Source: a virus. Taken from it: a stretch of 64,000 bases of DNA. The position numbers were made by a program, and so were the translations under genes. Shown here one piece after another: positions 247 through 39,224 of this stretch. Where the stretch lies: the IMG/VR virus record IMGVR_UViG_3300010403_000705, positions 248,001 through 312,000 of that record; one strand, given 5' to 3'. Positions within the stretch are counted from its first letter, which is position 1. The number at the start of each line of letters is the position of its first letter. Below the pieces are notes generated by a model that was not told the origin of the DNA, made no database searches, and was given only the letters and a program-made list of their open reading frames with translations.

Positions 247-281
247 TGGTACATCACTTGCAGATTGCATATTCAATGCCA
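247..281 (+). promoter_or_regulatory. 35-bp dyad element, copy 1 of 14
   Basis: First of a family with invariant length. Positions 1-5 read TGGYA, 12-16 TTGCA, 20-23 often TGCA, and 31-35 TRCCA, giving near-perfect twofold symmetry about position 18. GG at 2-3 and GC at 14-15 are 10 nt apart, exactly as in sigma-54 promoters (TGGCAC-N5-TTGCW). It sits between the terminator at 206-234 and the gene at 335; CCCATC follows 24 nt after it. It could be a sigma-54-type promoter, a phage-specific promoter or an operator. Confidence 0.75.
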
Positions 282-334
282 AGTGATGTAGATGATTGTT
301 AGAGACCCATCAAGTAATCAATCTGAAATTAACT

Positions 335-637
335 ATGCTCCTCATCTCGATCCTCTCCTTGGTTCTGTCAATCACCTCGATCTTCGTGGGTGGTGGCAAA
401 GGAATTGCTATGTGGGTGATTGGCACGATTGCCTTAATCATCGCTGGCAACTTTCTGGGGAATGTGATTCAGATGTACAGCAATCATCAGGGACCCATCC
501 TCCTGGCAACTGCGGGGATTCAGGTAGTGGCGATTCTCATCTCGCGGTGGTGGGGTTTGGTTTTTTACTTCGTTGCTTCGGTGGGTCTTACCCTGGTTCT
601 TTTCCTCGGTGCCCTGGCTACCATGACGGTTGGTTGA
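335..637 (+). CDS. Multi-pass membrane protein (100 aa)
   Basis: Almost entirely hydrophobic, with about four predicted transmembrane segments. It shares the NHQ and ISRWWGL landmarks with the preceding truncated gene, so it is a tandem duplicate. ATG at 335 is preferred over an in-frame TTG at 296, because the protein becomes membrane-like exactly from this Met. No clear Shine-Dalgarno is visible. First gene after dyad copy 1. Function unknown. Confidence 0.7.
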   Translation: MLLISILSLVLSITSIFVGGGKGIAMWVIGTIALIIAGNFLGNVIQMYSNHQGPILLATAGIQVVAILISRWWGLVFYFVASVGLTLVLFLGALATMTVG

Positions 638-671
638 TAGACCCATCTACTTGTTGCTCGGAGAGATAGCA

Positions 672-815
672 ATGCTAACCATCTTTTGGCTGATTGGTCT
701 GCTTTACTGTTGCATTAAGTCCGGTTCGGAAGGAGTAGCTTTTTACCTGCTGGCAACCTTCCTGTTTTTTCTTCTGTTAGGTCGTGTCAATTACAGCTTG
801 CATAGTGGGTTCTAA
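672..815 (+). CDS. Small membrane protein (47 aa)
   Basis: Two hydrophobic segments separated by a short KSGSEG loop. ATG at 672 has GGAGAG 7-8 nt upstream, which decides the start over an in-frame codon at 630. It follows the 100-aa membrane gene in the same unit and is closed by the hairpin at 836-870. Unknown role. Confidence 0.65.
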   Translation: MLTIFWLIGLLYCCIKSGSEGVAFYLLATFLFFLLLGRVNYSLHSGF

Positions 816-835
816 CCAATCTGTTGTATGCTGGT

Positions 836-870
836 AGTCCTGGATCCTCCTAAAATAAGGATCCAGGACT
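836..870 (+). terminator. Strong hairpin, probable terminator
   Basis: A perfect 13-bp stem (836-848 with 858-870) and 9-nt loop after the small membrane gene. No T-tract follows, so termination may need a factor, or it may act as an RNA-end stabiliser. Confidence 0.6.
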
Positions 871-890
871 TACCTGTCATCTATTCTTGT

Positions 891-925
891 TGGCATATCA
901 ATTGCAATATACAGTATCTATACCA
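891..925 (+). promoter_or_regulatory. 35-bp dyad element, copy 2
   Basis: TGGCA at 891, TTGCA at 902, TACCA at 921-925. It lies 20 nt after a hairpin; CCCATC begins 25 nt past its end and the ATG at 979 follows. Confidence 0.75.
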
Positions 926-978
926 AGGTGCAAAAAAGACTACTGCAAACCCATCCATTATTGATCTTGCTCTAAGTT

Positions 979-1134
979 ATGAAGAACCTCTTTTGGTACG
1001 GTGTGGTCTTCGTGGGCGGTTTGTTCGTTGGGACGCAGTACATCTCTCCCATCCTGCCGCAGTTGAATCATACTGTGACGGCGATTTCGGATGGCGCCAG
1101 TAGCGTCAAGTCGTCTCTTCCCAAGGTCAAGTAA
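979..1134 (+). CDS. Single-pass membrane peptide (51 aa)
   Basis: One N-terminal hydrophobic segment with the motif GGLFVGTQYISPILPQ, then a polar Ser/Lys tail. The next gene carries a matching GGMYVGVKYVAPIVPQ, so the two are tandem paralogues. Start chosen as the first ATG after dyad copy 2; the ribosome site is weak. Probably membrane-anchored; function unknown. Confidence 0.65.
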   Translation: MKNLFWYGVVFVGGLFVGTQYISPILPQLNHTVTAISDGASSVKSSLPKVK

Positions 1135-1169
1135 GTCCTGCGCCGACTCTTACATTACGATAAGCGACA

Positions 1170-1358
1170 ATGAAGACCATCTTTCTGACTTTGACTCTGG
1201 TTGTTGGTGGAATGTATGTGGGCGTCAAGTATGTGGCACCTATTGTGCCGCAAGCTCACATTCCGACGGCGGTAGAGTTCAAGGATGCTTTGCATAAGCT
1301 GCATCAGGAAGTCTCTTGTCCGGTCGGACCCAATCAGAGTAAGTGTCGCAAGATGTAA
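1170..1358 (+). CDS. Single-pass membrane peptide (62 aa), paralogue of 979-1134
   Basis: N-terminal hydrophobic segment with GGMYVGVKYVAPIVPQ, then a soluble tail with two Cys residues (SCP and SKC) near the end that could form a disulfide if exported. Co-transcribed with its smaller paralogue 35 nt upstream. No known domain recognised. Confidence 0.7.
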   Translation: MKTIFLTLTLVVGGMYVGVKYVAPIVPQAHIPTAVEFKDALHKLHQEVSCPVGPNQSKCRKM

Positions 1359-1388
1359 CCCATCACGATCGAAAGGATACTCAATATC

Positions 1389-1589
1389 ATGAATTATTCT
1401 CCGCAGAAGCGTGCTGCCCGTACTCGTGAGCTGAACCGGCTGATTGACGCGCAGCTCAAAGATGACGACGCTCGACCCGCCCGCGTCAAGCGTCTTCGGG
1501 CTCCCATCGACGACACCGATCTGCTGCCTGATCTCTACCGCTCTCCACGCGGTCGGCGTAAGCAGAAGCCGCACCATACCCACGACTGA
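1389..1589 (+). CDS. Small basic protein (66 aa)
   Basis: Very rich in Arg and Lys (runs such as RKQK and SPRGRR), polar throughout and without hydrophobic segments, so nucleic-acid binding is possible. Last gene of its unit, just upstream of a terminator. Not recognised. Confidence 0.65.
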   Translation: MNYSPQKRAARTRELNRLIDAQLKDDDARPARVKRLRAPIDDTDLLPDLYRSPRGRRKQKPHHTHD

Positions 1590-1596
1590 ACCAACT

Positions 1597-1633
1597 ATGC
1601 CTGGCACCTTTTAGGTTGCCAGGCATTATTATT
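1597..1633 (+). terminator. Intrinsic terminator
   Basis: A perfect 10-bp stem (ATGCCTGGCA with TGCCAGGCAT) followed by a T-rich run. Confidence 0.8.
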
Positions 1634-1646
1634 TAAACTAGTTGTT

Positions 1647-1681
1647 TGGCATATGAGTTGCAATTAGCACAAGCTGTACCA
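1647..1681 (+). promoter_or_regulatory. 35-bp dyad element, copy 3
   Basis: TGGCA, TTGCA and TACCA at the canonical offsets. First of three tandem copies spaced about 62 and 42 bp apart. Confidence 0.75.
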
Positions 1682-1708
1682 AGGGCAAATTTAATAAGCC
1701 TGCACTTA

Positions 1709-1743
1709 TGGCACGGAAGTTGTAATTAGCATAAGCTGTTCCA
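1709..1743 (+). promoter_or_regulatory. 35-bp dyad element, copy 4 (diverged)
   Basis: TGGCACG start, but TTGTA replaces TTGCA and TTCCA replaces TRCCA. It is the only copy losing the -12-like GC, so it may be a weaker site. Confidence 0.65.
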
Positions 1744-1750
1744 AGTCTTA

Positions 1751-1785
1751 TGGCACGCTAGTTGCTAACTACAAGTCTTGTACCA
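1751..1785 (+). promoter_or_regulatory. 35-bp dyad element, copy 5
   Basis: TGGCACG, TTGCT and TACCA; the left half is close to the textbook sigma-54 consensus. It begins only 7 nt after copy 4. CCCATC starts 24 nt beyond its end. Confidence 0.75.
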
Positions 1786-1978
1786 AGCTCTGTGATGTCT
1801 TAGAAGACACCCATCAATTACTATGATGTTGCTTAGACACCGGTTGACGCTAAGCAAAGCGCGAAACCGAAGCGGTGGCGAATAGCTGCTGCGCCCCTTA
1901 CGGTGGTTTCTCTCTCCCATCCCGTAAAGGGGTGATCCAATAAGAGAGACAGATTCCAGCAACCAAAAGGAGCGCATC
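1786..1978 (+). promoter_or_regulatory. Structured 5' leader of the 459-aa gene
   Basis: 193 nt without a gene. I see a stem GCTTAG/CTAAGC, and near the end a longer helix CCCCTTACGG with CCGTAAAGGGG (one bulge), overlapping a TCTCTC/GAGAGA pairing. The Shine-Dalgarno AAAGGAG lies just downstream, so alternative folding could control translation. No known riboswitch class recognised. Confidence 0.45.
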
Positions 1979-3358
1979 ATGAATTCTCGCACCGACCACA
2001 ACTCTCTTCTCGCCGCTCTCGATTCCAGTGCTCTCAACTTCGTGACCGCCGCCTACGGTGCACCGGCGGCTCCCATCAAGCCGACCTTCTCGATCGTCAG
2101 CAACGTCAGCGCTTCGGATCTCCGAACGCCCAAGGCTCCCAAGACGGGCACCAAAGAAGTGATCCACACTGTCAAGCCGTGCAAGCTGCCCTCGCAAGGC
2201 ACCCTCGACGCGGCGAGCTTCCTGGTTGCCACACGGCAGGCTGGCAAGAGACCGGCGACGTACATCCAAGATACCACCGATCTGGAGACGGGCGAGTTTC
2301 ATGCCGCTGGTTCTCCGCGACTGTCGGATAACGGCAGTCCCATTCTGGTTCACGATCCCAAGGTGCAGGTCGCTGATGAAGCCGCCAACATCGCTGCTTT
2401 CTGCGGTTACGATCTCTCGCTGCCCCACGGCACTCAGCTTGATAACGCGGTCAGGATCGCTCGAAGCACGCTGCAATCGCGGCACGATCATCGCGGCAAC
2501 GGGCAATCCTCCAAGCCAGCGGCTGGCGATTGGTCTCGCGATTCTACTCACTTCACCTATGGCGCAAAGCGCCATGCGGTCACGGTAACGCATCACATCG
2601 CGGCACAGCAGATCACCCCGGGTGCCGCCCATCGTTCGCCAGAGGCGCATCAGAATAGGTGGAGCATCGCTGGTTACGTGGCTGGGCGTCCCAATGCCCT
2701 TGCCAAGCTGGTCTCTGACCTGGAGGGGCGTGAGCGTCTGGCGGTGAGCGACAAGATCACGTTCGTCAACCTGCGCGAGCACGTGATGAAGAATGAGCTT
2801 GACGCCTATACCAAGCGTCTCGCCGCCGAGTTTCCTTCGACCGTCGCCTTGCGCGAGACGCTCAATGAGAATGGCGACGTGGTGGGATACGAGAAGGTCG
2901 AGATCAAGAATCCCATCGCCGCGTCTCTGCATGGGCTTCCGTGGAGGAGCGAGAAGCTGATCAACGCTCTTGCCAGTCTTCAAGCTCTGGCGGAAGCCCG
3001 TCTGGAAGCGATTCGCGCCGACAAGACAGGCGTGGATGTGGATGTGGAAACGGCTTACCAAACGGTTGCCCGTATCGCCGAGGAAGAGGCGACCGCTCCC
3101 ATCCGTCAGGGAGAAGAGATCGAGATCGAGAGCATCAATGTCAAGGGCATGCCTGCCAAGATGAGCCGTTATCAGGTGCGCTTGGCGGAAGCTAGCCGGC
3201 TTGCCAATCTCTCGAATCTCGCCGCCGAAGGTGACGCCATCTCTCAGCAAGAGTGCTTCGAGATCGTCTGCTCCCGTACGCGTCAGTCCCTGTCACAGCG
3301 TGGCGCGCCCACGATTGAGGAAGAGCTGACTCTCCTCAACTCTCTTCCCAAGGGATGA
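1979..3358 (+). CDS. Abundant hypothetical protein (459 aa)
   Basis: Largest GC-rich gene of the left part, preceded by three dyad elements, a long leader and a strong AAAGGAG site 7 nt before ATG, all pointing to high expression. Codons favour C and G third bases, unlike neighbours. The N-terminal 60 residues are Ala/Pro/Ser-rich, the middle is His-rich and polar, and the C-terminal 150 residues are strongly helical and Glu/Ala-rich. No signal peptide or membrane segment. No family recognised; a structural or DNA-coating protein is possible but unsupported. Confidence 0.85.
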   Translation: MNSRTDHNSLLAALDSSALNFVTAAYGAPAAPIKPTFSIVSNVSASDLRTPKAPKTGTKEVIHTVKPCKLPSQGTLDAASFLVATRQAGKRPATYIQDTTDLETGEFHAAGSPRLSDNGSPILVHDPKVQVADEAANIAAFCGYDLSLPHGTQLDNAVRIARSTLQSRHDHRGNGQSSKPAAGDWSRDSTHFTYGAKRHAVTVTHHIAAQQITPGAAHRSPEAHQNRWSIAGYVAGRPNALAKLVSDLEGRERLAVSDKITFVNLREHVMKNELDAYTKRLAAEFPSTVALRETLNENGDVVGYEKVEIKNPIAASLHGLPWRSEKLINALASLQALAEARLEAIRADKTGVDVDVETAYQTVARIAEEEATAPIRQGEEIEIESINVKGMPAKMSRYQVRLAEASRLANLSNLAAEGDAISQQECFEIVCSRTRQSLSQRGAPTIEEELTLLNSLPKG

Positions 3359-3372
3359 GAAACTCTGAGATT

Positions 3373-3409
3373 TGGGAGAGGGGCTCGGTCCCTCTCCCAT
3401 CTCTTCTTA
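3373..3409 (+). terminator. Intrinsic terminator
   Basis: A 9-bp stem GGGAGAGGG with CCCTCTCCC (3374-3382 with 3390-3398) and 7-nt loop, followed by a CT-rich tail. A CCCATC copy overlaps the 3' arm. Confidence 0.7.
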
Positions 3410-3528
3410 AGATTCGATGTTATCGAAGATAATTGAAACAGCACAGGTTCCTGCCAAAGACGCGCATGCGTATATCAGAGCCTATGACTGTTGCAATTCT
3501 CTTCAATAGAATTGAGTTTAGGAGAACC

Positions 3529-3912
3529 ATGAAACAGTTTAAGAGAAACATGAAACAGTTTAAGCTGTATTGGTTGTCTGGTAAGATCGAGGCTGACGCT
3601 TGTCGAAGAGCGGGCGTTGGTGGTTCATCACTTGCCGCACTTGATTACTCCTATAAGGAGTTAAAGGCTGAAGTCAAAGCCTTGACCAACCAAGAGCTTG
3701 CTGATCTCTGTCGGAGCTTCGCAGACATCTGGTCTGATAATATCGAAGATGACAGGCAACCGGTTCTTGCGCAACTCTCTGAGTATGCAAAGACGGATGT
3801 GAGTCTGCACGCCAGGTTGGTTGCTATGATCTCGCTGTATATCTTCGGTCGGTCGCAATCGACTGTGGCGGTAGAAGAATTCCTGGACAATATCTATCAA
3901 CCAGAAGGTTGA
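3529..3912 (+). CDS. Hypothetical protein (127 aa)
   Basis: ATG at 3529 has AGGAG 5 nt upstream, which decides it over an in-frame upstream TTG. The first 21 bases are nearly repeated at once (ATGAAACAGTTTAAG at 3529 and 3550), giving MKQFK twice, so a start-site duplication is likely. Soluble and helical. Not recognised. Confidence 0.7.
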   Translation: MKQFKRNMKQFKLYWLSGKIEADACRRAGVGGSSLAALDYSYKELKAEVKALTNQELADLCRSFADIWSDNIEDDRQPVLAQLSEYAKTDVSLHARLVAMISLYIFGRSQSTVAVEEFLDNIYQPEG

Positions 3913-3919
3913 CCCATCC

Positions 3920-4063
3920 ATGCGTCAATGGCTACGTGATCGTTATCGTCGGAGAGACCTGACCATCAAGCTGCGACGTAAGGAGTCAGGTCTTCGTCGG
4001 TTTCGAATCAAAGATGATCGGTATGCAATACCGCGAGAGCGGTGGCAACAGGAGCCCATCTGA
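3920..4063 (+). CDS. Arg-rich small protein (47 aa)
   Basis: More than a quarter of its residues are Arg (e.g. RDRYRRRDL), so nucleic-acid binding is plausible. Its TGA overlaps the next ATG by one base at 4063, indicating translational coupling. An AAGG lies about 12 nt upstream of the ATG. Confidence 0.55.
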   Translation: MRQWLRDRYRRRDLTIKLRRKESGLRRFRIKDDRYAIPRERWQQEPI

Positions 4064-4284
4064 TGTCAAGTGGTTTTAATTGCTACCTCAGTCAGGTCAA
4101 GTTGACCGTGGATGGCTACGAGCATGGACCGTGTGGCAAACATTGGGGCGTGGGTAAGCCACTGTACAAGATGGATATCAAGATGGCAGACTTCTGGAAG
4201 ACCGCCCATCTGCGCGCGGATGATCGTGAGGATGCCAAAAAGAAAGTGCTAAAGCAGTATCCTAAAGCGCTGTTCTTCATCTGA
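4063..4284 (+). CDS. Hypothetical protein (73 aa)
   Basis: ATG at 4063 overlaps the preceding stop, and AGGAG lies 8-9 nt upstream inside the previous gene; this is preferred to an in-frame GTG at 4042. Soluble, Lys-rich C-terminal half ending KALFFI. Not recognised. Confidence 0.7.
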   Translation: MSSGFNCYLSQVKLTVDGYEHGPCGKHWGVGKPLYKMDIKMADFWKTAHLRADDREDAKKKVLKQYPKALFFI

Positions 4285-4319
4285 TACCCATCTCTGTGTC
4301 TAAGTGAGGTCAAAGCATC

Positions 4320-4517
4320 ATGGCAAAGCCGGTGTGGCAGCAGAGGTTGCAGGACAAGCTGAATAGTAACCCGCTGTGTTTCGTCGGAGACACGCATCTG
4401 GTCAAGCACGTCTCTTGTCTCAAACAGGGTGAGAGCAAAGGAAAAAAGGTTACTCTGAGATTGGCGGTTAACTTCAGCTTCAATACCTGTGCGGAATGTA
4501 AGGTCTCGGTCAGGTAA
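4320..4517 (+). CDS. Hypothetical protein with CxxC (65 aa)
   Basis: Small basic protein ending TCAECKVSVR; two further Cys residues (at about 20 and 32) could complete a zinc site. GAGGT lies 11 nt before ATG. Last gene before a 525-nt gene-free stretch. Function unknown. Confidence 0.6.
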   Translation: MAKPVWQQRLQDKLNSNPLCFVGDTHLVKHVSCLKQGESKGKKVTLRLAVNFSFNTCAECKVSVR

Positions 4518-5042
4518 CGACGTGTGTCTGTAGGTGCGGAAGCGAGAACGCTTGGAAGGAACACCCGAAGGATTCGGTGGTAATTGCGTCCAGTTGGTAA
4601 GATACAGATCGGTTAAGTTCCGAGTCTGACACTGGGTCTATCACTCTGCTTCAGCAATAGAGTTGTACCTAATAAGCTAATCCAATTATCAAACCCATCT
4701 GGGTTGGTTGGAACGCGAGCTTGGGTTGAGCTGAAAAAAGAGATAGCAATCTGTTAACGCGATTGATGATGGTCCAATCGACAGGTCATACCGCTGTAAG
4801 ATCGGAAGTTTTGCGGCGGACATTGGAGAGTTTGAGTCTCTCCCATCAATCTCCCACTGACAGAATGAAACGCGGTTTTAATATTCTCCGGTAACCCCGG
4901 ATAGGTGTGGGGTCTGTGACAGCACCGAGGGAGCCCCATAGTTCTGTACAGTGACGTGTGAACGCACACGTCACCCTCATCCAAGCGTTTTCCCTTCCGC
5001 ATCTAGAAACAACTCTAGCAACTCTTATCCGAGGCTGGCATC
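4518..5042 (+). other. Gene-free stretch with many hairpins
   Basis: No convincing ORF in 525 nt. Visible helices include AAGCG/CGCTT near 4,540, CGATTG/CAATCG near 4,770, and a perfect 10-bp hairpin GTGACGTGTG/CACACGTCAC with loop AACG at 4951-4974. The density of helices suggests one or more structured RNAs or a very long leader for the gene at 5043. No known family recognised. Confidence 0.45.
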
Positions 5043-5378
5043 ATGTCAAAAGTTTCTGGTTTCGTTAACGTTGTCAGGGGTTACGTAGGCATCCTGTCTA
5101 AATTCGTCAGAAACTCATTGTTTCATGAATGCTCCAGCGTCGAGATGCTGAAAGAACGCCTGTCTCGCGGCAATTGGTGCCTTGCCCAGGCTTTCTACTG
5201 GCAGGATCTTTGTTTCATCAACCAAGTCGACGGTGGCGATGAATGGCTCGTCATCAAGGGCGATCTCGTGTTCGAGAGTTTGACTGTCGAGCCGATGATC
5301 GCTAGCGGTCGCTTCGACGACTTCCTTCGAAGGGTGATGACGGCGAGTCGTGAACAACTTCTAACGCTTCAATACTAG
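5043..5378 (+). CDS. Conserved phage hypothetical protein (111 aa)
   Basis: Contains the block QDLCFINQVDGGDEWLVIK, which I recall from many phage hypothetical proteins of this size; no function is established. Soluble alpha/beta composition. It starts 4 nt after a GAGGC-containing site and is the first gene after the structured stretch 4518-5042. Confidence 0.75.
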   Translation: MSKVSGFVNVVRGYVGILSKFVRNSLFHECSSVEMLKERLSRGNWCLAQAFYWQDLCFINQVDGGDEWLVIKGDLVFESLTVEPMIASGRFDDFLRRVMTASREQLLTLQY

Positions 5379-5439
5379 ATCTAAAGAGAACCCATCGACC
5401 AACCATTAATAGAGACCTTAGTAAAGGTAAAGAATAGCT

Positions 5440-5715
5440 ATGAGTTCCTATCAGGTCCTGGCGAGATTGGAATTGCCAGGCGTAAAGGATGATAATATCT
5501 CCTGTACTGTTTCCACGTTGGAAACAGGTCTTTCGAACGTAATGTCAGTAGTGCAGATCGGAGAAAAAGTTTGGCGAGAGATACATCCTCGTGCGCCTGA
5601 AGATGTGTGTGGGTTTCTGGACATGATGAAGAAATGTATCAAACGTGCCCATCACGATCTAGGAATGGCAAAAAAGGAACTTCAATTTCTCAATCTTGAT
5701 CCCAATCAGGAGTAA
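5440..5715 (+). CDS. Hypothetical protein (91 aa)
   Basis: N-terminal beta-rich part and Lys-rich helical C-terminal part (from about residue 60). AAAGG lies upstream of the ATG. Last gene before a perfect-palindrome terminator. Not recognised. Confidence 0.7.
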   Translation: MSSYQVLARLELPGVKDDNISCTVSTLETGLSNVMSVVQIGEKVWREIHPRAPEDVCGFLDMMKKCIKRAHHDLGMAKKELQFLNLDPNQE

Positions 5716-5740
5716 AAAGACAGAAGCTAGTCCAGCGTGC

Positions 5741-5785
5741 AAAGAAGAGAGACGGTGCGTACGCACCGTCTCTCTTCTTTGTTTT
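5741..5785 (+). terminator. 40-bp perfect palindrome terminator
   Basis: 5741-5780 is self-complementary over 20+20 bases without mismatch, followed by GTTTTT. As RNA it forms a very stable hairpin; as DNA it could extrude a cruciform. Confidence 0.85.
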
Positions 5786-5793
5786 TAATTGGT

Positions 5794-5828
5794 TGGTATG
5801 AAGATTGCAAATTGCAAAGTCTAAGCCA
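5794..5828 (+). promoter_or_regulatory. 35-bp dyad element, copy 6
   Basis: TGGTA, TTGCA, TTGCA and AGCCA at the canonical offsets, 14 nt after the palindrome. CCCATC begins 13 nt past its end. Confidence 0.75.
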
Positions 5829-5887
5829 ATCTATCGGAGACCCATCAACCAAACCTACCTTTGCGTGAAGGAAAGGAATTGATTTTC

Positions 5888-6142: not shown

Positions 6143-6203
6143 ACGTTAAGTCTTGTTTATCCTTCATCCCATCTCTCACAAGAGAAGATAGAGAGTAGCA
6201 TCT

Positions 6204-6677
6204 ATGAAGACCGTCAAAGAGATTCTGATTGAGGCTTCCAATCTTCTTTCTGAGGATACATGGTATCAGGGATCTTTTTTCAATACACGATGGCAGGAAG
6301 ATACAGAGTGTACTGTGCTATGCTATTGCGCGCATGGCGCGGTTCAGGCTGTTGGTAATGAAAAAGTAGCTGAGATCTTGTCATCACCCATATGTATCGA
6401 GATTGCTGTGACCAGTGATGCACAGGATGTCGCGGGCGACACCCGAGCCCGTGACGCTTGGCGTCTGGGCGCCCAAAACACGCTTTTTGGGCTGTCTGTA
6501 CAAGACAACTGGAATTCCAGACCGTTCTTCTGTAACGATCCAACAATGGCAGCTCACTACGTTTTGGGTATGGTGGGCTTGACTTCTGTCTTTAACGATC
6601 TTGGTTCAACTACTTTTCAGATGATCAAGCAGAAGTTTACGCTGGCTATCGAGACCGCCAAACGGCTCGACATCTAA
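6204..6677 (+). CDS. DUF6197-like protein A (157 aa)
   Basis: Matches the family layout: N-terminal helix ILIEASNLLSEDTWYQGSF, a Cys/Gly block CYCAHGAVQA, and a C-terminal FNDLGSTTFQMIKQKF helix. It has two paralogues in the window (11321-12097 and 13066-13527). Family function unknown. Between CYCAHGA and the tail lies a variable 80-residue middle. Closed by a terminator at once. Confidence 0.75.
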   Translation: MKTVKEILIEASNLLSEDTWYQGSFFNTRWQEDTECTVLCYCAHGAVQAVGNEKVAEILSSPICIEIAVTSDAQDVAGDTRARDAWRLGAQNTLFGLSVQDNWNSRPFFCNDPTMAAHYVLGMVGLTSVFNDLGSTTFQMIKQKFTLAIETAKRLDI

Positions 6678-6680
6678 TAA

Positions 6681-6711
6681 AAAAGGAACGGCACCCCGCC
6701 GTTCCTTTTGA
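6681..6711 (+). terminator. Intrinsic terminator
   Basis: A 12-bp stem AAAAGGAACGGC with GCCGTTCCTTTT and a 5-nt loop; the 3' arm ends in T4. Confidence 0.85.
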
Positions 6712-6717
6712 AAGTTC

Positions 6718-6752
6718 TGGCACTGACATTGCAGATTGCATTTAATATACCA
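6718..6752 (+). promoter_or_regulatory. 35-bp dyad element, copy 7
   Basis: The best single match to the consensus: TGGCACTGACATTGCA, with TTGCA repeated at 19-23 and TACCA at the end. CCCATC begins 24 nt past its end, then the ATG at 6805. Confidence 0.8.
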
Positions 6753-6804
6753 ACAGCGATTAACACTGATAAGCACCCATCAGTTAATAAGATCTTCTAC
6801 AACT

Positions 6805-7447: not shown

Positions 7448-7454
7448 ACCACTG

Positions 7455-7484
7455 AGGCGAGGGGAGCATCCCCTCGCCTTTTTT
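7455..7484 (+). terminator. Intrinsic terminator
   Basis: An 11-bp stem AGGCGAGGGGA with TCCCCTCGCCT, 3-nt loop, followed by T6. Confidence 0.9.
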
Positions 7485-7490
7485 GCTGAA

Positions 7491-7525
7491 TGGCGCAGTG
7501 ATTGCTAGTTGCAAAGTAGATGCCA
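7491..7525 (+). promoter_or_regulatory. 35-bp dyad element, copy 8
   Basis: TGGCG (A5 replaced by G), TTGCT, TTGCA and TGCCA. It lies 7 nt after the terminator; CCCATC begins 29 nt past its end. Confidence 0.75.
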
Positions 7526-11320: not shown

Positions 11321-12097
11321 ATGACGCATAAGATAACTCAGATTCTCATTGATTCCAAGGGCATCCTTTCCCCTGACAATTGGAGACAAGGCTCTTACTT
11401 CAAAGCTGAATCCGATTCTCTTTGCATGTGCGCTCACGGCGCTGTGCAAGTCTTTGCAAACGAGCGAGTCTTTAGCATTGTCGCGCCGTTTCTGAAACAG
11501 TCTTCTACCCATCACTCATCGCCGTCGACAGTGGAACGAGCGGTGTTGATGGCAGAGGCGGCATCCGCAGCGGATAGTCCTGGAAAGGCGGCGTCGATGG
11601 CATGTGGCACCGCAAAGACGCCGATTGATGCGGCATCGTTGGCAGCGACGGCGGCATCACGGGTAGAGGCGTCACTGGCGGCGCGACGTGGGGCGGCGTC
11701 GGCGGTAGGAGCGGTGGACAGCGCCGTCGCTGCGGCGGCTTCCGTGGCGGTTACAGAAGCGTTGGCTTCAGCGGCGGGTTATGAGGCGGATGATGTTGGC
11801 GCCGCTGATGTGGCGTTTGCAGGAATTAAAGCATCGCACATGGGAGCGACGGCAGCATCAGAGGGTGCGCAGCATGCTGAAGATGCAGCAGTTACACCTA
11901 CGAACGCCAGCACTGACGCCTTTACAATGGCGTGGAATACCCGTTCTTCGTGGGTGAAAGGTAATCTAGAGGCTCACTATATCCTTGGAATGGTTGGTCT
12001 GACCACATCTTTTAATGATTCTGCCAAGAGTCTGCAAGAGGTGCTGGTCAAGTTTGACGAAGCCATTGCTTTGAGCAAGGTTCTTCTGCCTGAGTAA
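11321..12097 (+). CDS. DUF6197-like protein B with Ala-rich insertion (258 aa)
   Basis: N- and C-termini match the two shorter paralogues (ILIDSKGILSPDNWRQGSY; CMCAHGAVQVFANE; TTSFNDSAKSLQEVLVKF). The middle (about residues 66-190) is a low-complexity Ala/Ser/Asp region made of degenerate A-A-S type repeats with GCG-rich codons, adding about 100 residues. The 615-nt span from about 11,507 to 12,122, including this insertion, has no CCCATC, one of the longest gaps in the left part, consistent with recent expansion. Function unknown. Confidence 0.8.
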   Translation: MTHKITQILIDSKGILSPDNWRQGSYFKAESDSLCMCAHGAVQVFANERVFSIVAPFLKQSSTHHSSPSTVERAVLMAEAASAADSPGKAASMACGTAKTPIDAASLAATAASRVEASLAARRGAASAVGAVDSAVAAAASVAVTEALASAAGYEADDVGAADVAFAGIKASHMGATAASEGAQHAEDAAVTPTNASTDAFTMAWNTRSSWVKGNLEAHYILGMVGLTTSFNDSAKSLQEVLVKFDEAIALSKVLLPE

Positions 12098-13065: not shown

Positions 13066-13527
13066 ATGAAAATTTCAGAAAAACTGATTGAAGCAAAATC
13101 ATATTTAACTGAGGAGACATGGCTACAAGGTCGACTTTTTCTCATTGAATTTGACAGTGGTAATATTCGTTTATGTGCTCATGCCTCTTGCGCTGTTGCA
13201 AGTAATGAAGCGATAAAAGCGCACTATGATAAAGCATGTGCGATAGTGGCTGCAAAGCAATATGCCTATGCTGACATCAGCAAAGCTACCGAACTAGGTG
13301 AGCTAACTTTGCTGATTGTTGCGTCTGATAAAGGAAACCAGTTAGCCAAAGATGGTGTTATGGTGGCTTGGAAAAACCGCCCATCATGGCTTAATGAAAA
13401 TAATCAGGTAAGTTACGTAGCAGGCATGGCGGGACTAACCATCGATTACAATGACACACATAGTTTACCAGAAGTTCTAGCCAAGTTTGATGAAGCTATT
13501 GCTGTAGCGCAATCTCTGGGCATCTAG
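13066..13527 (+). CDS. DUF6197-like protein C (153 aa)
   Basis: Same layout as the genes at 6204 and 11321: LIEAKSYLTEETWLQGRLF, LCAHASCAVASNE and DYNDTHSLPEVLAKFDEAI. AT-rich compared with its paralogues, so it probably has a separate history. It is the minimal version without long ins. Starts 26 nt after the tRNA-like element. Confidence 0.75.
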   Translation: MKISEKLIEAKSYLTEETWLQGRLFLIEFDSGNIRLCAHASCAVASNEAIKAHYDKACAIVAAKQYAYADISKATELGELTLLIVASDKGNQLAKDGVMVAWKNRPSWLNENNQVSYVAGMAGLTIDYNDTHSLPEVLAKFDEAIAVAQSLGI

Positions 13528-13845: not shown

Positions 13846-13880
13846 AAGGTTGGAGGAGGGGTTCCCTCCTCCAACCTTTG
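13846..13880 (+). terminator. Intrinsic terminator
   Basis: A perfect 14-bp stem AAGGTTGGAGGAGG with CCTCCTCCAACCTT (13846-13859 with 13865-13878) and 5-nt loop. Confidence 0.8.
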
Positions 13881-13892: not shown

Positions 13893-13927
13893 TGGTACAA
13901 CTTTTGCATTATGCACAATGAATGCCA
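13893..13927 (+). promoter_or_regulatory. 35-bp dyad element, copy 9
   Basis: TGGTA, TTGCA, ATGCA and TGCCA at canonical offsets, 15 nt after the terminator stem; CCCATC begins 28 nt past its end. Confidence 0.8.
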
Positions 13928-14364: not shown

Positions 14365-14610
14365 ATGAATGTAGGTTTGTCCTACCGCGGCGCCGTCATC
14401 CTGGATATGCTTAAAGCGAAAAACGGCAAGGTGCTTTCCCATCGTGCCATTGGACGGCGGCTTTGGAAAACCGATGCTCCTGCATCGTGGACTACCATGA
14501 TTGCAATTGAGATTGGCAAGCTGCGACGGATTGATTCCAATCTGCGTCGTCAGATTGTCAATGTACATGGCAAGGGTTACATGTTTGGATGCACTGTGCT
14601 CCACAAGTAA
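14365..14610 (+). CDS. Stand-alone OmpR/PhoB-type winged helix protein (81 aa)
   Basis: The whole protein fits the Trans_reg_C wing: helix ILDMLKAKNGKVLSHRAIGRRLW, recognition region TMIAIEIGKLRRID, and the terminal hairpin IVNVHGKGYMFG matching the family's (V/I)xTVRGxGYxF ending. No receiver domain is present. Likely a DNA-binding regulator, and a candidate to bind the 35-bp dyad elements, though this is speculation. Confidence 0.8.
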   Translation: MNVGLSYRGAVILDMLKAKNGKVLSHRAIGRRLWKTDAPASWTTMIAIEIGKLRRIDSNLRRQIVNVHGKGYMFGCTVLHK

Positions 14611-19249: not shown

Positions 19250-19278
19250 GACCTTCTGGCGTTAACTGTTAAGACTTG

Positions 19279-19320
19279 AAAGTGGCGGGTAGCACAACGC
19301 TCCCGCCACTTTTTTGTTTT
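19279..19320 (+). terminator. Intrinsic terminator
   Basis: An 11-bp stem AAAGTGGCGGG with CCCGCCACTTT and a T-rich tail. Confidence 0.9.
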
Positions 19321-19329: not shown

Positions 19330-19364
19330 TGGTATAGTATTTGCAATATACATTAACCATGCCA
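19330..19364 (+). promoter_or_regulatory. 35-bp dyad element, copy 10
   Basis: TGGTA, TTGCA and TGCCA at canonical offsets, directly after the terminator. CCCATC begins 10 nt past its end. Confidence 0.8.
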
Positions 19365-23485: not shown

Positions 23486-23532
23486 CTTTGAGGAGCGTGG
23501 GATTACCCCACGCTCCTCAAAGTTATTGTTTA
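23486..23532 (+). terminator. Intrinsic terminator
   Basis: A 16-bp stem CTTTGAGGAGCGTGGG with CCCACGCTCCTCAAAG and T-rich tail. Confidence 0.9.
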
Positions 23533-23534: not shown

Positions 23535-23569
23535 TGGCACTAGCATTGCAATATGCGAAGAGTATGCCA
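23535..23569 (+). promoter_or_regulatory. 35-bp dyad element, copy 11
   Basis: TGGCACTAGCATTGCA and TGCCA. CCCATC begins 9 nt past its end. The next supported gene is only at 24037, so the transcript would start with about 470 nt of non-coding RNA. Confidence 0.8.
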
Positions 23570-26837: not shown

Positions 26838-26866
26838 ATGGGCGCGTATGCGCCCATGATATTTAT
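26838..26866 (+). terminator. Hairpin, probable terminator
   Basis: 8-bp stem ATGGGCGC with GCGCCCAT, GTAT loop, AT-rich tail. Confidence 0.6.
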
Positions 26867-26876: not shown

Positions 26877-26911
26877 TGGCATCATCATTGCATTTTGCAT
26901 ATGCTATACCA
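26877..26911 (+). promoter_or_regulatory. 35-bp dyad element, copy 12
   Basis: TGGCA, TTGCA, TTGCA and TACCA at canonical offsets; CCCATC begins 18 nt past its end; next ATG 26972. Confidence 0.8.
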
Positions 26912-30545: not shown

Positions 30546-30580
30546 ATGGGGCGGCTTCTCAGAAGCCGCCCCATTTTTAT
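30546..30580 (+). terminator. Intrinsic terminator
   Basis: ATGGGGCGGCTTCT with AGAAGCCGCCCCAT, followed by T5. Confidence 0.9.
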
Positions 30581-30594: not shown

Positions 30595-30629
30595 CGGCAC
30601 AGATTTTGCATAGTGCATAATACATGCCG
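30595..30629 (+). promoter_or_regulatory. 35-bp dyad element, copy 13
   Basis: Starts CGGCA and ends TGCCG: the first and last bases are both changed from the usual T...A, keeping the symmetry. This compensatory pair supports the dyad as the functional unit. CCCATC begins 8 nt past its end. Confidence 0.8.
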
Positions 30630-33714: not shown

Positions 33715-33726
33715 TAGAATGTAGAT

Positions 33727-34059
33727 ATGCTCAAGGAAAAATATCTAATTTTATACTATTTTAACATGATTATTGGTTCAGATAACGATTTGTTTGATTC
33801 AAATGATTCATTGAGTAAATCTCTTGTACTTTCATGGATTAAATATTTGGAAGACAAGAGTTATGATATATTATCTAAGCATTACCCCAAAGATGAAGCG
33901 CAGGTTGAGGTAACTAACGGTTCGCAAAACTTTATAGGAAAAATTGTTCGTTATCCCAAATCTTTAGGAGAATCAACAGGATGTCTATTTGTAATCGATA
34001 GAGAGTATGGCGGCGGTTCTTGGGTGCCGTACCTATGTATTACTGAAATAAATGGATAA
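33727..34059 (+). CDS. Hypothetical protein (110 aa)
   Basis: Soluble, Ser/Asp-rich; an internal ATG at 33766 is a possible alternative start because neither has a strong ribosome site. Lies between the NMNAT-PRTase gene and NadE. Unknown. Confidence 0.6.
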   Translation: MLKEKYLILYYFNMIIGSDNDLFDSNDSLSKSLVLSWIKYLEDKSYDILSKHYPKDEAQVEVTNGSQNFIGKIVRYPKSLGESTGCLFVIDREYGGGSWVPYLCITEING

Positions 34060-34064
34060 TTAAT

Positions 34065-34631
34065 ATGATTATTTCTAAACTCTTAAAAGATAAGATGCAT
34101 AATAGAGGTGTACCTGGTTGGTTTATTCATGAAATATTTGATCGTAATTATCATATTAACGATGGAGAATTGTTGTCTTGGACATTGATTCCATTGCTAG
34201 ATCAAATGCCCATCTTATCATCTCATAAAGATAGATATGGAGTTAAGGCGGCTGAGCAAGCAAGAGTATTAACAGATGCGGCGATGCAAATATCTTTGCA
34301 GTGTTTTCAAATCACACCTGGTTTTAAAAAGCTTAGTGATGAATTTAAGAATTATCTTAATGAATCTTCAACTTGGCATCTTCAATCTTTTTTTAGTGGA
34401 ATTAGATTGAAGTATAATCACACTAAGTTGAAAAGTGTCATTGAAGCTAGCTTTTGGTCTAGTCACGATTATGGTGTTAAGATAAATGATTGGGGATTTA
34501 ACCCAATGAATCAAGCTGCACATGCAGCGCATGTTTTTACACAATCCGCTACTATTCTTGATAGTGAATTTGTTTGGTCAGAAGCTGCGAAACTCTTACA
34601 GAAGATTAGTAAAAACAATGAAGATTCCTGA
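34065..34631 (+). CDS. Hypothetical protein (188 aa)
   Basis: Helical, soluble, no motif recognised (segments such as WTLIPLLDQMPILSSHKDR). Overlaps the next gene by 14 bases, so it belongs to the same transcript as the NAD genes. Confidence 0.7.
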   Translation: MIISKLLKDKMHNRGVPGWFIHEIFDRNYHINDGELLSWTLIPLLDQMPILSSHKDRYGVKAAEQARVLTDAAMQISLQCFQITPGFKKLSDEFKNYLNESSTWHLQSFFSGIRLKYNHTKLKSVIEASFWSSHDYGVKINDWGFNPMNQAAHAAHVFTQSATILDSEFVWSEAAKLLQKISKNNEDS

Positions 34632-34821
34632 ACATAGGCGTTGTATTCATGATCGTAATAAAAACCAAATTGGATATGTTTGGTATAGTGGTCCAGTAAT
34701 TTCTATTGAAGGAAAATTGTACCATTGTTCAGATTATGATGATGGTTATTTTGAAGTAGTTCCCATCATTGTAGAAGGTGGGATCCATTATTGTCTTGGC
34801 GATTCTCGAATGAGTGATTAA
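34618..34821 (+). CDS. Hypothetical protein (67 aa)
   Basis: Starts inside the preceding gene (34618), with AAGATTAG upstream. Beta-rich, acidic, two Cys-containing strands (KLYHCSDYDDGYFEVV). Unknown. Confidence 0.65.
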   Translation: MKIPEHRRCIHDRNKNQIGYVWYSGPVISIEGKLYHCSDYDDGYFEVVPIIVEGGIHYCLGDSRMSD

Positions 34822-34831
34822 AAAAAATATA

Positions 34832-35695
34832 ATGAGTAAATCAAAAGGTAAGCAACAGGTAAATATTACTATTCTTTACGGTCTGCCTGGTAGTGGAAAA
34901 TCCTTTTATAGTCAACGAAACAAAGAGACTAGAGTTGACTTTGATGCTATCATTAAGTCACATGGACCAAATAAATTTGCTGTTTTAAAAGAGCTTAATA
35001 GGCAAACAGAAATAAAATTATCAAGAAATTATTACTACACTAGAAACCATGCCGTAACTATTGATGGTTTGGTTACTACCAATCAACAGCTTCGAGATTT
35101 GATCGATTCCTTTACCAGTTACTTCCAACAATATCAGATCATTTTTAGGTTAGTATATTGGAATGAAGACCGAGAAGCTTGTCTTCATAACGATAAAAAC
35201 CGTCGTACAATTTCTGCGGCAGCGGCAATTAAATCTATGCCGTATGAAAAACCGCATTTTGATTCTTTTCCTGAACTATCCCAGAAAAGAATTCAACCTA
35301 TGAAGGTAGTGAAAAAGCATAATGCTATTTCATGGATCTCCCATCTGTTAAGAGAGTTGGATTATGATCCTATTCAGATCGAAACTATTACTGACACTAT
35401 GCAATTGGAATCTAAAAGCTGGTGTTTGGGCGGAGAATGTTGCACTTGGGATGATCAATCTTCTGTAGTAGAAGCACAGGCTCCGCGGCAGTTCGAGGAG
35501 CTTGATAGGCTGCTTGTATATATTAATCCTGAGATTACAGCTATAGATTTTAGACAGATAAAGGATATCTGTTGTAGTCTATTTCATTTTTCCGAATCAG
35601 ATTATTATGGCGGCAGCACCGATAATGCCAGACATGTATGTGATCTAAAACAGTTATATGAATGTTTACTAAATCTTCAATTCATAAATGAATGA
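34832..35695 (+). CDS. P-loop kinase-like protein, paralogue A (287 aa)
   Basis: Walker A LYGLPGSGKS at residues 16-25, a VDFDAI acidic motif and VTIDGLVTTN (Walker B-like) near 77; an AAA_33/polynucleotide-kinase-like N-terminal domain. The C-terminal 90 residues share SKSWCLGGE and a Cys/Asp pattern with the second copy at 39995. It overlaps NadE by 4 bases (ATGA). ATG at 34832 preferred to GTG at 34814. Substrate unknown; RNA 5'-end phosphorylation is one possibility. Confidence 0.75.
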   Translation: MSKSKGKQQVNITILYGLPGSGKSFYSQRNKETRVDFDAIIKSHGPNKFAVLKELNRQTEIKLSRNYYYTRNHAVTIDGLVTTNQQLRDLIDSFTSYFQQYQIIFRLVYWNEDREACLHNDKNRRTISAAAAIKSMPYEKPHFDSFPELSQKRIQPMKVVKKHNAISWISHLLRELDYDPIQIETITDTMQLESKSWCLGGECCTWDDQSSVVEAQAPRQFEELDRLLVYINPEITAIDFRQIKDICCSLFHFSESDYYGGSTDNARHVCDLKQLYECLLNLQFINE

Positions 35696-36612
35696 GATAC
35701 TATAATCATATGCTTTTTAATCCTAGTGATTATCTGGTACAGAAAATTTCTTTGCTAGAAGACTATTTCATTCAATTCGGAATTGATGCAGTAGTTTTTG
35801 GAATGTCTGGTGGTGTAGATTCAGCAGTAGTTGCTGGAATTCTCAAGCGTTGTCAATCACTCAAACGAGTGATTGCAGTGGCTGCACCCATCTCTTCTAA
35901 GGGAGCTACTAATCAAGATGTGGCGGCAAATCGAGCGGTCAAACAATGTGAGGCTTTTGACCTTGAAGTATGGAAGCTTGATCTTACCCCCGCTCAGTTT
36001 TGTTATGAAGGCATCATGAGATGTTCCCCATCTAATGCAGAGGGTGAGAGAAGAGTATGGGCAGACGGACAGATCCTTTCAATTGCTCGAACTCCTTTGT
36101 TTTATGGTGTGGCTGCGCATCTGCAAGCTGAAGGATATCGGGCTGTGGTTTCTGGCACCACGAATCGTTCCGAGGGATCATATATTGGATTCTACGGTAA
36201 AGGTTCAGACGGTATGAATGACATCCAACCTATCTCAGATATGTGGAAGTCTCAGGTCTTTGCACTAGCCAATCATCTGGGAGTGATTCCTGAAATTATC
36301 AATGAGAAACCGCGTGGAGATGTTTGGGATTCTCGTTGTGATGAAGAGATGATTGGCGCCACTTATCCTCAGATAGAAGCTTATCTAGAAGCTAAATGTC
36401 TTAGTTTTTCAATGAACCCATTTTCGCCCGCAGCCACGTCTTACCAAAAAATGGTTGGTGCTGAAGCGATAGAAAAACTTCATAGCATCAATCGTCATAA
36501 ATATCTAGTCGGGTCCCCTGCTATTCATTTTGATATTCTTGATCGCCATATACCGGGTGGATGGTCTGAAATGAATAGTTATACCCATGTCCTTGGAAGA
36601 CGTTATGTCTAA
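35692..36612 (+). CDS. nadE: NAD synthetase (306 aa)
   Basis: ATP-pyrophosphatase signature FGMSGGVDSAVVAG at residues 36-49; GTTNRSEGSYIGFYGKGSD and IQPISDMWKSQV match the NadE adenylate-binding and K-containing motifs, and EKPRGDVWD the later loop. NadE converts nicotinate adenine dinucleotide to NAD with ammonia (or glutamine through a separate domain, absent here). Length fits the ammonia-dependent type. It overlaps the P-loop gene and shares its transcript with the NMNAT-PRTase fusion, so the products could rebuild NAD. Confidence 0.9.
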   Translation: MRYYNHMLFNPSDYLVQKISLLEDYFIQFGIDAVVFGMSGGVDSAVVAGILKRCQSLKRVIAVAAPISSKGATNQDVAANRAVKQCEAFDLEVWKLDLTPAQFCYEGIMRCSPSNAEGERRVWADGQILSIARTPLFYGVAAHLQAEGYRAVVSGTTNRSEGSYIGFYGKGSDGMNDIQPISDMWKSQVFALANHLGVIPEIINEKPRGDVWDSRCDEEMIGATYPQIEAYLEAKCLSFSMNPFSPAATSYQKMVGAEAIEKLHSINRHKYLVGSPAIHFDILDRHIPGGWSEMNSYTHVLGRRYV

Positions 36613-36625
36613 AGGTAGAAGGTAA

Positions 36626-36916
36626 ATGAAGCTAAATATAGCTGACTTACGTTATTATTCGATTGCTAATAGAACGCAAATCCAAGCACAGGAAAGATGT
36701 GCTTGTTACTATTGTATTAAAATCTATCAATCAAATCTGATTGTAGAGTGGCATTTGGAAAAACGTGGTCAATATAAAGGGGAAGAAACAGCTATTTGTC
36801 CTTTCTGTGGAATTGATTCAGTGATTCAATTCGAGCATTCTTTCCATGAAGAAATTGATATTTCTTTTCTGAAGTCCGCCAGAGATTATTGGTTTCATAA
36901 CAATAGCTCTAAATGA
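36626..36916 (+). CDS. Zinc-ribbon protein of a conserved 'cytoplasmic' family (96 aa)
   Basis: RCACYYCIKIY and AICPFCGIDSVIQ provide two CxxC pairs; this arrangement is a widespread small bacterial and phage family without known function. 14 nt after NadE. Confidence 0.75.
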   Translation: MKLNIADLRYYSIANRTQIQAQERCACYYCIKIYQSNLIVEWHLEKRGQYKGEETAICPFCGIDSVIQFEHSFHEEIDISFLKSARDYWFHNNSSK

Positions 36917-36955
36917 TTTTGGATTCAAAATACAATAACTAAAAGTAATAAAATT

Positions 36956-37771
36956 ATGCTTAATCTTGGATTCAAAGGTTCTGTGCCTGGCGCTTGGCGT
37001 GTCCCAGAAAACTTCAAACTAACAGCACATTGTTGCAGTGGATTGTCAAAGTCAATCCTTCCCAATCTTGCCTTATACATTCCAGACGCCTTATCAAAGA
37101 AGGATTGTGATCTTCTTATAAAACTATTTCGCAAACAAAAAACTGCTCCTGTAGCAGTATCAGGATACCAAACTGCTGATCCAAATGAAATTGGCAGTGT
37201 GCGTGCGACAGGTTGGGGACCAGAGCTGAGTGCACAATTGTGGGAGAAACTGTGTGCAGCATGCAGCGCATTTGGTGTTGCACTTGGCAGTGAGTATGGT
37301 CCTGTTTCAGTAAATCAATTTACACCCACTGACTGGTACGCTATCCCAGGCAAACGCAAAGAGCATACTAGATGGATAGAATCCGGAATTTCTCCAGTGC
37401 TTAGGTTTATGGAATACAGACATGGGGGACGTCATAATACCCATTATGATATGGGATTTGATTATGAAGCTCATAATCCAAACGATCATCGACGCACTCT
37501 TATGTCTGTGGTATGGTATTTGAATGAAGAACCTCATTCAGGAGGTTGTACTAGATTTATTGAAGACGGTCAATCCCATCTACCGATTTGGAATAGAAAG
37601 CTAGATGATTGGGAGCGTTCTGCTAGTGAAGATGAAGTATTAGCTACGCAACAGCCGCATCGTGGGGGTGCTTTGATTTTTTGGCACCGAATGGCTCATG
37701 ATGTGCAAGAATTTACTGGTAATTCTCGCATCATTATCCGTGGTGATATTGAATTCACTGCGCTGAACTAA
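36956..37771 (+). CDS. 2-oxoglutarate/Fe(II) dioxygenase (271 aa)
   Basis: Prolyl-hydroxylase-type fold: HYDMGFD gives the HxD iron ligands, VVWYLNEEPHSGGCTRFI the family's central strand pair, and HDVQEFTGNSRIIIRGD the distal His plus the Arg that binds 2-oxoglutarate. The N-terminal 90 residues are a separate region. Known enzymes hydroxylate proteins or nucleic-acid bases; the target here is unknown. Confidence 0.85.
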   Translation: MLNLGFKGSVPGAWRVPENFKLTAHCCSGLSKSILPNLALYIPDALSKKDCDLLIKLFRKQKTAPVAVSGYQTADPNEIGSVRATGWGPELSAQLWEKLCAACSAFGVALGSEYGPVSVNQFTPTDWYAIPGKRKEHTRWIESGISPVLRFMEYRHGGRHNTHYDMGFDYEAHNPNDHRRTLMSVVWYLNEEPHSGGCTRFIEDGQSHLPIWNRKLDDWERSASEDEVLATQQPHRGGALIFWHRMAHDVQEFTGNSRIIIRGDIEFTALN

Positions 37772-37804
37772 GTTAACCCCTCACTTTTATTTAGTGAATA
37801 AAAT

Positions 37805-37906
37805 ATGGATCCCATCATAGAACACATTTTGTTATCTTATACAAGTACCGGATTGGCTTTCTTTATAATTAGAGAGATGTTTATCTATCTTGATGGTGGT
37901 CGATAA
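37805..37906 (+). CDS. Single-pass membrane peptide (33 aa)
   Basis: Hydrophobic stretch TGLAFFIIREMFIYL. Its start includes a CCCATC (Pro-Ile). No clear ribosome site; context only. Confidence 0.4.
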   Translation: MDPIIEHILLSYTSTGLAFFIIREMFIYLDGGR

Positions 37907-37929
37907 CCTTTTATAAGGATCATAACTCT

Positions 37930-38328
37930 ATGAGTTACATTGCAATTATCAATCCCTCCAGTTGCATGGTAGTTACATTGGGACAAGGCACTCAAATCAT
38001 TGATGCCAATCCTTCATTCTTTTTGCTTGATCTTATCAGACGTGGTTATGATATTGCTGTTATTTCTTCTTCAAATAAATTTTCTGATGTTGAGAAGTGT
38101 TGGCTTGATTTGATTCCGAGCGAAAATATCTTCCTGCCCATTGGTGAGAATGAAGAGTGTTTTGGGGTTTATAATTCCTCTGTTATTGCCGCTTGGGCGG
38201 CGGCTTTTAAGAAGTTTGGATTGAAACCACCCATCGATCAAACTCGTTGGACCAACTATAAGAGAGCTGCTCAAGAACAAGGAGTAGTAACGGATCCATC
38301 GGATCTACTTCCACAGGATAATTCTTAA
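37930..38328 (+). CDS. Hypothetical protein (132 aa)
   Basis: AAGGA about 10 nt before ATG. Rossmann-like alternation of strands and helices (FFLLDLIRRGYDIAVISSSNK), resembling a HAD-like fold but without the catalytic DxD motif. Unknown. Confidence 0.7.
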   Translation: MSYIAIINPSSCMVVTLGQGTQIIDANPSFFLLDLIRRGYDIAVISSSNKFSDVEKCWLDLIPSENIFLPIGENEECFGVYNSSVIAAWAAAFKKFGLKPPIDQTRWTNYKRAAQEQGVVTDPSDLLPQDNS

Positions 38329-38392
38329 TCTTTTAACGCATAAAATTACAGGATCATAGTGATCCGACAGCTTGGGCGGGTGAATATTTACA

Positions 38393-38683
38393 ATGAAAAT
38401 ATCTTACGAGTCCACAGCGGCTGCTATTTTTCTCCTTGAAGTAAAAATGGTTGTTGCTCATTTAGCTAGCGATTATATTTCGGAGCTAGAAAATAGATGC
38501 AGCTATCTTTCAATATTAGAAGGATGTGGCTGGACAGAGCAACAATTTGATCAAGAAACACTACGTCGTGTGGATGCAGGATGGAAATTTCTTCGTCCAT
38601 CACCTCGTGGTAATCATCCAATGCATGCGTTGATGCCTGTCTCCCTTAACGGGATGGCGGGCATTCCGCCTTTAAGCATTTAA
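38393..38683 (+). CDS. Hypothetical protein (96 aa)
   Basis: Helical N-terminal 60 residues, Pro-rich C-terminus. Weak ribosome site. Not recognised. Confidence 0.65.
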   Translation: MKISYESTAAAIFLLEVKMVVAHLASDYISELENRCSYLSILEGCGWTEQQFDQETLRRVDAGWKFLRPSPRGNHPMHALMPVSLNGMAGIPPLSI

Positions 38684-38707
38684 GGGGCATTAAATAGCAT
38701 ACATGAT

Positions 38708-39097
38708 ATGTTTAATGTACAGATCAAGAATCTCAATACTGAAACATGGATGTATGAAAATGTTGCCGTAATATCTTTTTTACTTTCTATATGGTGGCTG
38801 ACTGGTCATCAAGCAGTTGAACTTATTGGTAGTGCAGCAGTGTTTTTTGGTTTTTGTTGCTCGTCAATTAGTGACCGTATGGTTGAGAGAGAAGCAGCCA
38901 GAACCAAACCTTTAGTACATTGTTATAGAATGTATTGGTGGTTCTTTTGGGCAAAAGAATGCAGTTTTGCTATCTATTTTGCCCTGCATGGCGCATGGAG
39001 CGCTATTGCTGGATGTATAGTGTTTGGTTTATACCCACTATGGCGTAAATACTGGCGTTACATTCACCCTTTGCGGCTTTCTAAAAGTAAGTCTTAA
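38708..39097 (+). CDS. Membrane protein (129 aa)
   Basis: Three to four hydrophobic segments (e.g. VAVISFLLSIWWL; GSAAVFFGFCC; FAIYFALHGAWSAIAGCIVFG) and a basic C-terminus (LSKSKS), so the tail is likely cytoplasmic. Unknown. Confidence 0.75.
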   Translation: MFNVQIKNLNTETWMYENVAVISFLLSIWWLTGHQAVELIGSAAVFFGFCCSSISDRMVEREAARTKPLVHCYRMYWWFFWAKECSFAIYFALHGAWSAIAGCIVFGLYPLWRKYWRYIHPLRLSKSKS

Positions 39098-39106
39098 TAG
39101 AAGACA

Positions 39107-39130
39107 CGCGCCTAAAATTTAATAGGCGCG
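39107..39130 (+). terminator. Weak hairpin, possible terminator
   Basis: CGCGCCT with AGGCGCG around a 10-nt AT loop; no T-tract. Confidence 0.5.
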
Positions 39131-39189
39131 CACTTTGCAGAACCGCAATCTTACCAAAGGCTAGCGATTTTGCAAGTTTTCTTATGAAT

Positions 39190-39224
39190 TGGTATATATT
39201 TTGCATAGTGCAATTAGTATGCCA
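39190..39224 (+). promoter_or_regulatory. 35-bp dyad element, copy 14 (last found)
   Basis: TGGTA, TTGCA, TGCA and TGCCA at canonical offsets; CCCATC begins 8 nt past its end. I found no further copy in the remaining 24 kb. Confidence 0.8.

Follow-up and report, generated by a model that had tools for sequence, protein, structure and literature searches.

Mirror-image sigma-54-like sites carried by a giant phage and by many unrelated viruses

The general view is that phages begin early transcription through the sigma-70 of the host or through sigma factors or polymerases of their own. At a sigma-54 (RpoN) promoter the docked complex remains closed and has to be opened by an ATP-driven activator. 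Bacterial sigma-54 promoters have the form TGGCAY-N5-TTGCW, and the consensus for Escherichia coli RpoN is TGGCACnnTTnTTGC (PMC8743547). The repeated phage element described here shares with these promoters the sequence, the spacing and the position upstream of genes and, in four phages, enhancer-like dyads near a single site; unlike them, the phage sites stand head to head in one dyad and in arrays, and bacterial genomes are practically free of the dyad. Pseudo-symmetric bidirectional sigma-70 promoters have been described in E. coli and Salmonella (PMC12825309, PMC10268837), where, as would hold for the phage dyads, symmetry admits polymerase in two orientations, one binding excluding the other. 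The phage dyad differs from these in its apparent sigma family, in being viral and in its far more complete symmetry; moreover, the genes flanking jumbo-phage dyads run one way. The early promoters of phiKZ-like jumbo phages are similar in that a repeated promoter-like motif precedes many operons, but in phiKZ the phage itself supplies the RNA polymerases that transcribe its genes (PMC10612078), whereas the present motif matches a host sigma factor. In the literature, which we covered incompletely, we found no report of symmetric sigma-54 sites, of phage sigma-54 arrays or of phage blocks built on them; the sites suggest an apparently undescribed route by which virus genes would be started through sigma-54.

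The DNA analyzed (the window) is a 64-kb stretch, bases 248001-312000, of the 432,844-bp phage record IMGVR_UViG_3300010403_000705. An initial annotation had listed fourteen copies of a 35-bp dyad in it, and all of them are present, with exact coordinates, on the + strand. By sequence and matrix scan, copies 1 and 2 lie at 247-281 and 891-925, copies 3 to 5 at 1647-1681, 1709-1743 and 1751-1785 (a tandem trio with starts 62 and 42 bp apart), copies 6 to 8 at 5794-5828, 6718-6752 and 7491-7525, and copies 9 to 14 at 13893-13927, 19330-19364, 23535-23569, 26877-26911, 30595-30629 and 39190-39224. Aligned without gaps, they have eight invariant columns and six more above 90%; GG at positions 2-3, TTG at 12-14, C at 22 and CC at 33-34 are identical in 14/14, as had been claimed, and copy 13 has indeed had both end bases altered together, to C...G. 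Every copy is 35 bp long, as had also been stated; the dyads of other phages span 33-38 bp, and the fixed length is a trait of this phage and not of the class. Most copies have TGCA at 13-16 and 20-23, but this feature is not invariant, with exceptions in the copies at 891, 1647, 1709, 1751, 7491, 19330 and 23535.

A 35-bp position matrix scores the fourteen copies at 26-39 bits forward and 23-36 bits in reverse (14-34 with each copy left out in turn), compared with 9.2 bits for the next best place in the window and maxima of 9.5-14.2 bits in three Markov sequences. When the full record was searched with a pattern and with a model, exactly one further true copy emerged, at 335616-335650. The core elements are symmetric both here and in the dyads of other phages, and at the center of many copies a stem of 5 bp with a 3-base loop could form. 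The dyads might on that account be hairpin promoters or RNA structures, as for the N4 virion RNA polymerase, with the central TTGCA-N3-TGCAA as a short stem. We regard this as very improbable: the central pairs are broken in the copies at 891, 1709 and 1751, identity between the halves at variable positions does not exceed the expectation from base composition, and single half-sites have no stem at all. With stem pairing not conserved and no excess of symmetry at variable positions, an N4-type hairpin promoter was rejected.

The setting of the dyads is regular. By gene calls from a simple script, which are approximate, nearly all genes around the window dyads lie on the + strand, so that there are no divergent flanking genes there, and a dyad is usually preceded by a stop codon, an intrinsic terminator and a spacer of about 10-19 bases, and followed by a leader and a start codon. 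The terminators, all on the + strand, were located at 1593-1628 (that of the preceding gene, before copy 3; -20.8 kcal), 5739-5782 (copy 6; -34.3 kcal), 6681-6709 (copy 7), 7454-7480 (copy 8; -23.1 kcal), 13847-13876 (copy 9; -25.5 kcal), 19273-19314 (copy 10; -25.1 kcal), 23486-23522 (copy 11; -31.5 kcal), 26838-26857 (copy 12; -15.5 kcal) and 30546-30574 (copy 13; -25.7 kcal). Of the strong terminators that a script detected (-20 kcal or stronger), 8/10 in window positions 1-40000 have a dyad 10-19 bp behind them, as do 0/3 of those beyond 40 kb in the window. The fifteenth copy, at 335616, is likewise preceded by a stop codon, a terminator hairpin and a short gap, and followed by a CCCATC leader and a gene.

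In 12 dyad gaps the best match to a sigma-70 promoter was no better than in shuffled sequence, and sigma-70 scans of window regions gave no excess of matches. Because no such match rises above chance, the dyad is the only recognizable promoter-like feature between the terminator and the next operon. No activator (enhancer) sites were recognized in the window. Base composition also sets the region apart, with 13/15 copies inside a block of about 45-53% G+C in a genome of ~30%. This block covers window positions 1-32000, coincides with the dyads and with the CCCATC words taken up below, and is embedded in a record that is otherwise about 28-34% G+C.

Each half of the window dyads reads TGGYAY(R)-N4-TTGCW, matching the sigma-54 -24/-12 consensus, with TGGCAY at -24, TTGCW at -12, and GG and GC ten bases apart. 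Among 126 distinct dyads from other phages the half-site consensus is TGGCAYRR-N3-TTGCW (A being the majority at the last base), and positions 7, 8 and 12, which the search had left free, also agree with sigma-54. The reference consensus here is that of E. coli, and VpV262 is the one phage with these sites whose host is known. Outside the 35-bp dyads, the element-bearing contigs contain 158 occurrences of TGGYAYR-N4-TTGC vs 1 of the reversed pattern. A half-site matrix found 492 half-sites vs 15 in reversed sequence at loci that had been picked with the 35-bp pattern, with close head-to-head pairs 34-36 bp long. In an independent locus set, from a gapped scan that permitted dyads of 31-39 bp, the count was 458 vs 18, and distinct pairs of 33, 34, 35, 36, 37 and 38 bp numbered 14, 35, 15, 21, 26 and 3. 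Because halves also stand singly and dyad length varies over 33-38 bp, we take the half-site as the unit; the same variation means that a rigid dimer of one fixed spacing fails as an explanation. Isolated half-sites in one-way gaps point with the gene in 10 cases and against it in 12, and in one contig (L082) the single sites before + genes are all directed toward those genes.

The element also behaves in some respects like an operator. Arrays of inverted repeats in early control regions are familiar from dimeric phage regulators, and the dyads could be bound by a phage-encoded (or host) dimer making two contacts per subunit, the half-site being sigma-54-like by chance or through selected mimicry. 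Such a regulator would bind dyads strongly and single halves weakly and would control early operons. The strictness of the dyad and the conservation of both its halves, dense arrays in which spacings of 42, 47, 52 and 68 bp are preferred, single half-sites without orientation toward genes, restriction to viruses and, in the contig L067, sigma-70-like promoters close to half-sites are all in keeping with it. We consider it a serious rival and still an unlikely one, as the match of the half-site to the full sigma-54 consensus and spacing would then be coincidence, the dyad center differs by 5 bp among phages, and the window gaps would have no promoter at all. Moreover, all-against-all BLAST among 13 element-bearing phages found no protein family, and no regulator gene, shared by all of them, a comparison that a small diverged protein could escape.

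A symmetric pattern search of IMG/VR returned 75 stretches, parts of large phages among them. A slightly stricter pattern, run against 257 Gb of bacterial and archaeal sequence, matched once, roughly as often as chance predicts for ~38 bits; this sole bacterial match (L109) is surrounded by ordinary cellular genes and was judged to be chance. Given 75 viral stretches vs one cellular match at chance level, the dyad is specific to viruses. Sites were present in 11/11 large records tested, mostly in one compact block per record. Absence of the element upstream of genes in related phages was to have spoken against a promoter role; the element recurs before operons of other jumbo phages, and the order of stop codon, terminator, dyad and leader was found in four of them (L051, L047, L073 and L100). 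For one window stretch (as DNA) and a 459-aa protein no similarity to annotated phages was found, nor did a TerL fragment used as query match any. Cultured relatives of element-bearing phages (SIO1, ICP2, ICBM1, BcepC6B, Ss1 and others) have no half-site clusters, and therefore the trait is not bound to one phage family. Mirror-image sites of sigma-54-like sequence are carried by this giant phage and by many unrelated viruses.

The two halves of a jumbo-phage dyad are not equally well kept. In a sample of 48 dyads oriented by transcription, from 11 loci, T12 is retained in 45/48 upstream (gene-facing) halves vs 27/48 downstream (opposite) halves, and the information content is 19.2 bits in the former and 16.5 bits in the latter. 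The T12 asymmetry has p = 3e-5, an optimistic value as some of the sequences are related, and p = 0.017 with the window left out. This better conservation of the gene-facing half argues against the dimeric regulator introduced above. The suggestion that the element is a sigma-54 promoter is supported in part. The resemblance is far stronger than could be known from the window, because halves stand singly, spacing varies, the gene-facing half is favored and no sigma-70 match in the gaps rises above chance; on the other side, some single sites face away from the nearest gene, L067 has its sigma-70-like promoters, the densest arrays, in which as many as nine half-sites share about 200 bp, cannot have polymerase on every site, and searches of the phage and of 48 and 44 companion records turned up neither an RpoN domain (PF04552) nor a sigma-54 activator domain (PF00158). 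A sigma-54 promoter does not need either from the phage if the host provides them.

In mid-size phages the sites gather in intergenic control regions, often between divergent gene blocks, with late (terminase) genes on one side and early or replication genes on the other; gene orientation around the sites is - | + in 21 cases vs + | - in 6. Four related phages (L035, L049, L087 and L103) have one single site of canonical form 70-100 bp ahead of their first early gene, a dyad array farther upstream and, between the two, copies of a second dyad of the type ACCACAA...TTGTGGT, resembling an activator enhancer. In the cultured Vibrio phage VpV262 (L267) all six half-sites lie at 173-346, four forward and two reverse, directly after the terminal repeat and inside the 0.9-kb left-end leader, where a sigma-70 scan found no match. 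Directly past this array, at 380-490, VpV262 has repeated ACTGGT...ACC words, which are possibly binding sites of another protein. Many half-sites of a 34-kb phage (L059) have near them a further repeated palindrome, of the type CTGCCAAWWTGGCAG.

We hypothesize, with a probability of roughly 60%, that the dyads are head-to-head docking sites for host RNA polymerase with sigma-54 and are used as promoters. Each element would comprise two -24/-12 core promoter sites head to head, and we infer that host polymerase carrying RpoN docks on either half, forming one stable closed complex at a time. In jumbo phages the dyad would restart transcription past the terminator, once per operon of the compact block, with the gene-facing half as the working promoter and the mirror half permitting docking in reverse. 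In mid-size phages the units, single or paired, lie between divergent blocks and could fire both ways. The docked complex would be opened by an activator, presumably the host's because the searches recovered no such gene from the phages, so that the phage program would be tied to the state of the host; the symmetry itself would presumably bring some benefit. The sequences themselves establish the sites, their consensus, spacing, placement and directional asymmetry and their restriction to viruses; RpoN binding, promoter activity, firing in both directions and a host activator are inferred from them.

Docking need not lead to transcription, since in E. coli sigma-54 commonly binds DNA silently and the holoenzyme is known to bind without transcribing (PMC4591121). 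The sites might then be decoys or roadblocks that hold host polymerase closed, starving host sigma-54 genes (e.g. stress responses) or insulating operons, and would have no promoter role. Orientation-blind arrays of many sites and single sites indifferent in orientation fit such a role. We nevertheless find it improbable. In jumbo phages the sites hold a regular position between terminator and operon start, the gaps have no other promoter, the halves are directionally asymmetric, and titration would seem to call for more than the six to fifteen sites of a genome.

It is about an even chance that a large set of lytic phages, both jumbo and mid-size, has gone unrecognized and runs its control regions from mirror-image sigma-54 sites, which would couple the expression of phage genes to sigma-54 activators of the host and employ orientation-blind promoters of a kind scarce in cellular genomes. 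If true, phage operons would await an activator under stress or nutrient control, which would link infection directly to the state of the host, and the phages would offer a natural test of how a symmetric promoter selects its direction. With VpV262 in culture, the sigma-54 question can be put to the test.

The leaders that follow the dyads have a repeated word of their own. In window positions 1-31000, the + strand has 149 occurrences of CCCATC and the - strand 3, a bias seen in no other hexamer, and the word stands 15-50 nt before the start codon in 35/65 genes vs about 16% expected; it may serve in the RNA as a signal for translation or processing. The same word or a variant (CCCATCNNNTAACGG, CCCATCCTCTA, CTCCCATTCAC) is found in the post-dyad leaders of L051, L047, L073, L100, L046 and L070, and the leader words of other jumbo phages are strand-biased at 45:0, 0:48, 102:5 and 2:51.

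Several genes of the phage were also recognizable. Within the dyad block, window positions 14365-14607 encode an 81-aa protein that consists of an OmpR-type DNA-binding domain (PF00486) and is a possible regulator. Three further loci of the window phage's record (L028, L031 and L033) encode proteins resembling, by eye, peptide chain release factor, elongation factor G, IMP dehydrogenase and RtcB. The window genes include an NAD-synthase-like gene and one for an HrpB-like helicase with helicase domains, and those at 6204-6674, 11321-12097 and 13066-13524 are paralogs that share a DUF6197-like start.
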